Assembly (NCBI RefSeq): GCF_900108115.1
Contig: NZ_FTPU01000008.1
Span: forward strand, 1-64,000
Source: Epilithonimonas bovis DSM 19482
Lineage (GTDB): Bacteria; Bacteroidota; Bacteroidia; Flavobacteriales; Weeksellaceae
Reading direction: 5' to 3'
Length of the DNA: 64,000 nt
The position numbers and the translations under genes are program-made. Below are positions 34,822-35,754 of this stretch, one piece after another. The first letter of the stretch is position 1; every line of letters begins with the position of its first letter. The notes under the pieces are model-generated. The model was not told where the DNA came from, ran no database searches, and saw only the letters and a program-made list of their open reading frames with translations.

Positions 34822-34851
34822 TTGGTAGGATATAAAATTTTTATATCTTTG
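34822..34851 (+). promoter_or_regulatory. Consensus promoter of the structured leader and DUF4395-NIL operon
   Basis: TTG (34822-34824), a 19-bp spacer and TATCTTTG (34844-34851) match the Bacteroidota housekeeping consensus closely. Transcription should start near 34856-34858. Confidence 0.75.
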
Positions 34852-34855
34852 CTTC

Positions 34856-34970
34856 AGCAATTTTAAAAATTAGATGATCAAATCATATTCTCATATAATG
34901 ATGTGTAAAACAAACTGAAAGGTTTGGGGAAATTGCTGTGTAAAGCTTTACCCTAGGGTGAAGCTTTTTT
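34856..34970 (+). ncRNA. Structured leader RNA or small RNA ending in an intrinsic terminator
   Basis: From the predicted start site the transcript opens with CAGCAATTT (34855-34863), which pairs perfectly with AAATTGCTG (34930-34938) to close a domain of about 65 nt. Inside lie a hairpin CAAAC-TGAAAG-GTTTG (34911-34926) and a smaller ATGAT/ATCAT hairpin (34874-34886). Directly after the closing stem comes a terminator: AAAGCTTTACC / GGTGAAGCTTT with loop CTAG (34942-34967), then a T-run. The DUF4395 ATG follows 15-18 bp later. A 14-codon frame (34874-34918) encoding MIKSYSHIMMCKTN lies within. The arrangement fits a riboswitch, an attenuator or an independent sRNA. The family is unknown to me. 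Confidence 0.6.
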
Positions 34971-34984
34971 ATTTTAAATAATCA

Positions 34985-35419
34985 ATGATGAAAAGTATTG
35001 TGAACCTTTATACAGACGAGAACCTGGTAAGATTAACTGCGATGTTGGTAATTGCAACGGCTGTGGTAGCTCTGCTTTTTAAGGCTTCTTTTATCTGGCT
35101 GTTTTTATGTTTCGATTTTGGGCTGAGAGCATTTGGGTTAGCGTTTGCGCCTTTTGTTTTGTTGTCAAAGCTAATACTCAAAACCCTGAATGTAACACCA
35201 AAACCGATCTTTGCATCGCCAAAGAGGTTTGCAGCTGCACTGGGAGCTGTTTTCTCAGCAATCATTTTTCTTACCCAGCAGTTGGGTTATGATAATGTGG
35301 CGGTTGTCCTGGGCTTTTTGCTGATATTGTTAGCCGGGCTGGAATGTTTTTTTAAAATCTGCGTTGGCTGTTATATTTATCAGTTTTTGATACAACCTGT
35401 CCGGCGTAAAAATGAATAA
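34985..35419 (+). CDS. DUF4395 membrane protein with CxxC motif
   Basis: A 144-residue membrane protein with four predicted helices (about 15-30, 32-58, 78-98, 102-118). The N-terminal NLVRLTAML and the C-terminal CVGCYIYQFLI identify DUF4395. The Cys-x-x-Cys pair near residue 130 sits at a membrane edge and suggests a redox, metal or sulfur-carrying role, but the function is not established. An alternative start is the second Met at 34988. It is controlled by the terminator-ended leader directly upstream and is followed after 26 bp by a NIL-domain gene. Confidence 0.82.
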   Translation: MMKSIVNLYTDENLVRLTAMLVIATAVVALLFKASFIWLFLCFDFGLRAFGLAFAPFVLLSKLILKTLNVTPKPIFASPKRFAAALGAVFSAIIFLTQQLGYDNVAVVLGFLLILLAGLECFFKICVGCYIYQFLIQPVRRKNE

Positions 35420-35445: not shown

Positions 35446-35754
35446 ATGATCTACAAACAAGAAAACAATGCCAATGCTTTTGTCCCCAGAACCGCAAAAG
35501 AAATCATTCTGGAAATAGAACTGAATGGGAAAATAAGGTTTGATATGCTTCTCTACACCATTTATAACCATTATAATATCACCTACAAAATTGTGCATGC
35601 CCATATAGAATATCTGGATGGTAACAATTTTGGGAATGTCAGGCTTCTGCTTAAAATTTCTCAGGAAGAGCTGGGGCAGATAGAAGCCTATCTGGCGCAA
35701 TACAAATTGCTCAGCAGCAAAATCGATGTACTGCAAAAAAAGGAAGCCTCATAA
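35446..35754 (+). CDS. Stand-alone NIL-domain-like protein
   Basis: A 102-residue cytoplasmic protein that looks like a free NIL domain: a ferredoxin-like beta-alpha-beta pattern with MLLYTIYNHYNITYKIVHAHIEYLDGNNFGNVRLLLKIS, shown here only as its key parts (IVHAHIEYLDG, GNVRLLLKIS), then a helix. NIL domains are the regulatory, methionine-binding ends of methionine ABC transporter ATPases and also occur in sulfur-metabolism ferredoxins. Being cotranscribed with DUF4395 suggests a sulfur or methionine link, which is inference. Its stop codon lies inside the terminator hairpin. Confidence 0.72.
   Translation: MIYKQENNANAFVPRTAKEIILEIELNGKIRFDMLLYTIYNHYNITYKIVHAHIEYLDGNNFGNVRLLLKISQEELGQIEAYLAQYKLLSSKIDVLQKKEAS

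Follow-up and report, generated by a model that had tools for sequence, protein, structure and literature searches.

A predicted leader peptide with an invariant Met-Cys pair in a probable cysteine-responsive transcription attenuator upstream of the DUF4395-NIL genes of Epilithonimonas bovis

The window, that is, the whole stretch of 64,000 nucleotides analysed here, comes from Epilithonimonas bovis DSM 19482 (contig NZ_FTPU01000008.1, positions 1 to 64,000 of the forward strand). In it, the gene of a DUF4395 membrane protein is followed by that of a small NIL-domain protein, and the pair is preceded by a leader region whose features are collected in Table 1. The promoter sequence follows the pattern TTG-N19-TAnnTTTG, with TTG at 34822-34824, a spacer of 19 nt and TATCTTTG at 34844-34851. 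The TAnnTTTG box was found at the identical position in 20 of the 20 aligned relatives, and TTG with equal spacing in 18 of them. In flavobacteria this box occupies -12 to -5 with respect to the transcription start (PMC9723704), and the RNA is therefore predicted to start at A34856. Folding indicates that the 5' end of this RNA, AGCAAUUU, is exactly complementary to 34930-34937. The terminator hairpin (34942-34967) consists of 11 pairs and the loop CTAG, followed by a T-run; its stem positions are 95.8% paired across 15 main-clade relatives, and it is placed between the leader ORF and the first gene, as attenuators require. The leader as a whole folds with a z of -3.8, and none of 200 shuffles equalled the native fold. 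A first-pass annotation had proposed a consensus promoter, pairing of the first RNA bases with 34930-34938, and an intrinsic terminator directly before the gene start. These proposals were borne out: the promoter boxes are present and kept in relatives, the pairing is exact over 34930-34937, and the start codon of DUF4395, at 34985, comes right after the hairpin.

Table 1. Features of the leader region and of the two genes downstream (positions in the window)
Feature	Position	Strand	Basis or remark
Promoter, Bacteroidota housekeeping type, TTG-N19-TATCTTTG (predicted)	34822..34851	+	Sequence; boxes kept in relatives
Segment 1, 5' strand of stem 1:2, partner 34930-34937	34856..34864	+	Folding; species-specific arm
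Leader peptide ORF (predicted), MIKSYSHIMMCKTN then stop, 14 codons	34874..34918	+	Frame kept in relatives; third-position bias
Invariant Met10-Cys11, putative control codons, ATG TGT	34901..34906	+	Alignment; a stall at this point favours the antiterminator in the model
Segment 2, partner of segment 1 (off) or, via 34924-34929, of the left arm and the loop of the terminator (on)	34922..34937	+	Folding
Intrinsic terminator, segments 3:4, stem 34942-34952 / 34957-34967, loop CTAG, T-run	34942..34970	+	Terminator prediction; 34951-34956 is the antiterminator partner
DUF4395 membrane protein gene, CVGC motif, regulated gene 1 (putative)	34985..35419	+	Pfam PF14340, 9.7e-27
Small NIL-domain protein gene, regulated gene 2 (putative)	35446..35754	+	Pfam PF09383, 7.2e-9; keeps the leader where DUF4395 is lost

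The leader ORF was detected in 22 of the 23 Epilithonimonas genomes. These 22 correspond to the 20 genomes of the genus that possess DUF4395, in every one of which the leader precedes that gene, plus two in which DUF4395 has been lost and the leader directly abuts the NIL gene (G002, locus L139, and G017, locus L140). In all 22, the frame is 14 or 15 codons long and ends in ..M-C-[NKH]-x-[KN]-stop. Among 16 distinct versions of the ORF, differences at codon positions 1, 2 and 3 numbered 226, 155 and 652, respectively. Only M1, M10 and C11 are invariant as amino acids; both TGT and TGC serve as codon 11, and TAA, TAG and TGA all occur as stops among the relatives. The third-position bias, the synonymous Cys codons and the varying stops are not the kind of change expected of a pure RNA motif. 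We conclude from these sequence comparisons that the 14-codon frame very probably encodes a conserved leader peptide. The first-pass annotation had noted the frame with its Met-Met-Cys; it proves to be real (34874-34918) and conserved, and it is likely to be the sensor, which that annotation could not know. Cys11 is the best candidate for the control codon, and Met10 may contribute.

Some side observations concern the distribution of the leader. The NIL frame of G017 (L140) is shorter than in relatives. In the Chryseobacterium-like genus g20 (L146, L147), NIL is kept after a C92 peptidase gene, at the same chromosomal place, but neither the leader ORF nor DUF4395 is present. A second copy of the leader was not found in the genome of the window's own species; a candidate for one in G007 (L019) was rejected, the similarity being promoter-like and due to chance only.

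The leader offers three pairings of consecutive segments, designated 1:2, 2:3 (the antiterminator) and 3:4 (the terminator). In most relatives, segment 1 is made of leader codons 3-8 (for example GCAUAUUCUCUC) rather than of the RNA 5' end. Segment 2, GGUAGGAGAGAAUGUGU, follows the stop codon immediately, and the terminator contributes its left arm and loop as segment 3. The stem between the 5' end and 34930-34937 is thus specific to the window's species, and the relatives form its equivalent via codons 3-8. Fold modelling predicts that 1:2 dominates 2:3 in the free RNA of 16 out of 20 species, the window included, which leaves the terminator free to fold; four species, of the MKQ.. clade, prefer the antiterminator even without a ribosome. 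When a ribosome masks the Cys codon in the model, each of the 20 species forms the antiterminator, whichever of the 20 footprint sizes is used. With the modelled ribosome moved stepwise through the leader ORF, the antiterminator persists from codon 2 to about codon 12 and gives way near codons 13-15 in most species, which places the invariant Met-Cys where pausing would matter. The control codons of classical attenuators lie late in the range over which the switch is on, and codon 11 likewise stands at its late end here. For the window itself, a ribosome placed on the stop codon lets the 1:2 stem prevail at no more than 8 of the 20 footprint sizes. A ribosome at codon 11 does not cover the 5' arm, and masking there would hence be indirect.

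The proportion of paired cells was 94% for 1:2, 84% for 2:3 and 96% for 3:4, with almost no compensatory changes: among the 15 main-clade relatives, double compensatory changes were absent from the 1:2 stem and amounted to one pair only in 2:3. Pairing in 1:2 and 2:3 does not exceed that of shuffle controls. Slid-register controls were clearly lower, a contrast which is weak evidence because one of the compared sequences had itself supplied the structure. The antiterminator of the window does not stand out from shuffles either (25% fold equally well); across 20 related leaders, z averages -1.4. Since variation within the genus is too small, covariation is unsuitable as the main proof. Compensatory changes in a 34855-34938 stem had been set beforehand by the first-pass annotation as the test of its proposal; none was found in that register, because the relatives use another 5' arm. 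The role of the stem, namely keeping segment 2 off the terminator, is retained in them.

The 400 nt upstream of DUF4395 elsewhere in the phylum were searched for short frames with Cys codons. This revealed leaders of unrelated sequence with runs of 3 to 7 Cys codons, mostly accompanied by a terminator. At least three consecutive Cys codons were present in 19 of 80 upstream regions, against a single one on the opposite strand and an expectation of 0.25 from dinucleotide shuffles; the 80 regions are phylogenetically non-independent, the leaders with Cys runs spanning at least four families. In a sister genus, the leader MKTSTSTLTKLQKMNCCCPFKNQKRTD and its relatives precede DUF4395; for MKTSTSTLTKLQKMNCCCPFKNQKRTD itself (L046), the modelled on-range is M-N-C-C-C-P, the next F is partly on, and the signal then falls off. 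DUF4395 is preceded by ..VMCCCHVW.. in Edaphocola, and by ..MCCCCCRW.. and others in several further families of the phylum. One large family with such leaders appears, from its gene content, to resemble green sulfur bacteria. The three-segment model gave no clear on/off pattern in most of the more distant poly-Cys leaders.

The genes of the related operons point to cysteine metabolism. One operon (L132) encodes an O-acetylhomoserine/O-acetylserine sulfhydrylase, cysteine synthase A (CysK, above the curated cutoff) and a serine O-acetyltransferase-like protein; another (L135) encodes a thioredoxin and an O-acetylhomoserine/O-acetylserine sulfhydrylase, and a third (L134) a rhodanese. Two species of Edaphocola carry tRNA-Cys(GCA), DUF4395 and NIL behind a terminator-bearing poly-Cys leader, the last two being the gene pair of the window. 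The putative control amino acid is thus linked to the regulated genes: Met-Cys is invariant in Epilithonimonas, and the related operons combine poly-Cys leaders with cysteine-biosynthesis genes and tRNA-Cys. As a side observation, two tandem Cys-containing leader ORFs, each with its terminator, stand before tRNA-Cys(GCA)-DUF4395-NIL at the Edaphocola loci L195 and L196.

Leaders with Cys-Cys were also found within the genus before metN, the gene of a methionine-type ABC transporter, in several species (..MFCCYDL.., ..FVCCIRFI..; L205-L213), some with a terminator; MSGKMFCCYDLTFRIYMKK is an example of such a short ORF. The metN of the window's genome (L214/L153) is preceded by a single-Cys frame, MAVKFCFVTIDFSKAI, and then by a terminator-like hairpin. 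In other genera (L151, L152, L190, L192, L148, L221-L224), mixed Met and Cys leaders, such as ..KMMYCCMPEIEHCGD and ..TIIMCYQMAMPF, precede metN, with a tandem pair of leader-plus-terminator units at L148.

By sequence, the region combines a promoter, a conserved frame with an invariant Met-Cys, a terminator and predicted competing pairings, and its related leaders have a cysteine-metabolism setting. It is, very probably, a ribosome-mediated transcription attenuator of the trp type, based on a leader peptide. The first-pass annotation had suggested a cis-regulatory leader with a terminated transcript, which agrees with the predicted terminator and with the constant position of the leader beside DUF4395-NIL or NIL. 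Its hint at methionine or sulfur sensing is supported as far as sulfur amino acids are concerned; the cysteine signal is drawn from the relatives, whose poly-Cys leaders, cysteine-biosynthesis operons and tRNA-Cys make cysteine the most likely signal. That cysteine is the main signal of the attenuator we consider probable.

The attenuator would work as follows. RNA polymerase would start near 34856, and a ribosome would follow on the 14-codon leader. When Cys-tRNA (or Met-tRNA) is short, the ribosome would wait at codons 10-11, and segment 1 could not hold segment 2; the freed segment 2 would base-pair with segment 3, permitting read-through into DUF4395-NIL. A ribosome that completes the leader, or the absence of any ribosome, would let 1:2 form; the terminator would then fold and a short RNA of about 115 nt would be released. 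Ribosome stalling at the control codons, as well as both terminated and read-through RNAs, would thus be expected. The DUF4395-NIL pair, in turn, may serve cysteine or sulfur supply.

Other readings were weighed against this attenuator. The Epilithonimonas leaders contain a single Cys codon only, that is, a short sensor. The one Met-Cys pair could be a joint sensor of sulfur amino acids, or the single cysteine a nascent-peptide thiol sensor, within a phylum-wide set of leader-peptide switches covering DUF4395, NIL, methionine-type transporters, cysteine-synthesis enzymes and tRNA-Cys; this broader proposal we regard as doubtful. Improbable is the more specific reading of a nascent-peptide arrest leader, in which the single Cys, located in the peptidyl-transferase region, would sense a small molecule or thiol redox instead of tRNA charging and operate the same RNA switch. 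It is consistent with a lone Met-Cys that never varies and keeps a constant spacing to the stop codon, and with the conserved IFS[HQ] residues ahead of it; however, the conservation of these residues is explained by base pairing of their codons in the 1:2 stem, and the poly-Cys leaders and cysteine-biosynthesis operons of the relatives fit tRNA starvation better.

The first-pass annotation had raised the possibility of a riboswitch-like RNA or an sRNA, and neither is upheld by the conserved frame, the Rfam result and the fixed place of the leader beside DUF4395-NIL or NIL. A riboswitch binding SAM, SAH, cysteine or methionine, with the terminated leader as its expression platform and the short ORF as incidental, would account for a structured leader with a terminator before sulfur-related genes. 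The Rfam search which that annotation had suggested, however, assigned the leader to no family: nothing matched at the gathering score, and relaxed thresholds gave chance-level matches only. Furthermore, the strongest conservation outside the stems is a codon pair in a third-position-biased frame, which does not resemble the core of a ligand pocket, and the leaders of related operons are unrelated in sequence, with Cys codon runs as their only common feature. A riboswitch is therefore very unlikely. Least credible of all is a stand-alone trans-acting sRNA with its terminator before DUF4395 by chance: an own promoter and terminator, a product of about 115 nt and the lack of an RNA family match would suit it, but the leader contains a conserved ORF and lies directly before DUF4395-NIL, or before NIL where DUF4395 is lost, in 22 of 22 leader-bearing genomes. 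The 6S-Flavo RNA (RF01685) was also considered and rejected: the only 6S-Flavo-like match of the genome lies on another contig, and its 52 bits are below the gathering score of 85 bits.

The predicted attenuator shares with those of trp and his a short leader ORF, late control codons, 1:2, 2:3 and 3:4 pairings that would be mutually exclusive, and a terminator before the first gene. It differs from them in two respects: they usually have runs of control codons, whereas the Epilithonimonas leader has one Cys with one to three Met, and in the window segment 1 is the RNA 5' end instead of leader codons. Cysteine leaders have been described in other phyla. In Rhodobacterales, the uORFC-8-2 motif upstream of cysS is a predicted cysteine-codon leader with read-through on shortage of Cys-tRNA (PMC8632094). 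Compared by description, it resembles the window in combining a predicted cysteine-codon leader with an intrinsic terminator; it differs in phylum, in the gene downstream (cysS, cysteinyl-tRNA synthetase) and in having two tandem Cys codons versus a single one here. In the cys operons of mycobacteria, polycysteine leader ORFs precede sulfur-metabolism genes, and a conserved terminator was not found there (PMC1262725); a Cys peptide likewise stands before sulfur genes, but attenuation takes another route than a terminator. An actinobacterial cysteine-codon attenuator is attributed to Canestrari et al. 2020, as cited in PMC13236596. In Flavobacterium, leader-peptide attenuation has been inferred at amino-acid operons (PMC9723704). 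A search of the open literature, with subscription journals mostly outside its range, yielded no earlier description of DUF4395 regulation or of cysteine leaders in Bacteroidota.

For DUF4395 and its small NIL-domain partner, these results offer an initial clue to function: both may act in cysteine or sulfur supply. The clue spans the phylum, because leaders of unrelated sequence but of the same logic precede the same gene family. The results also suggest that cysteine control through leader peptides occurs in Bacteroidota, with tRNA-Cys placed, in one genus, inside the controlled operon.
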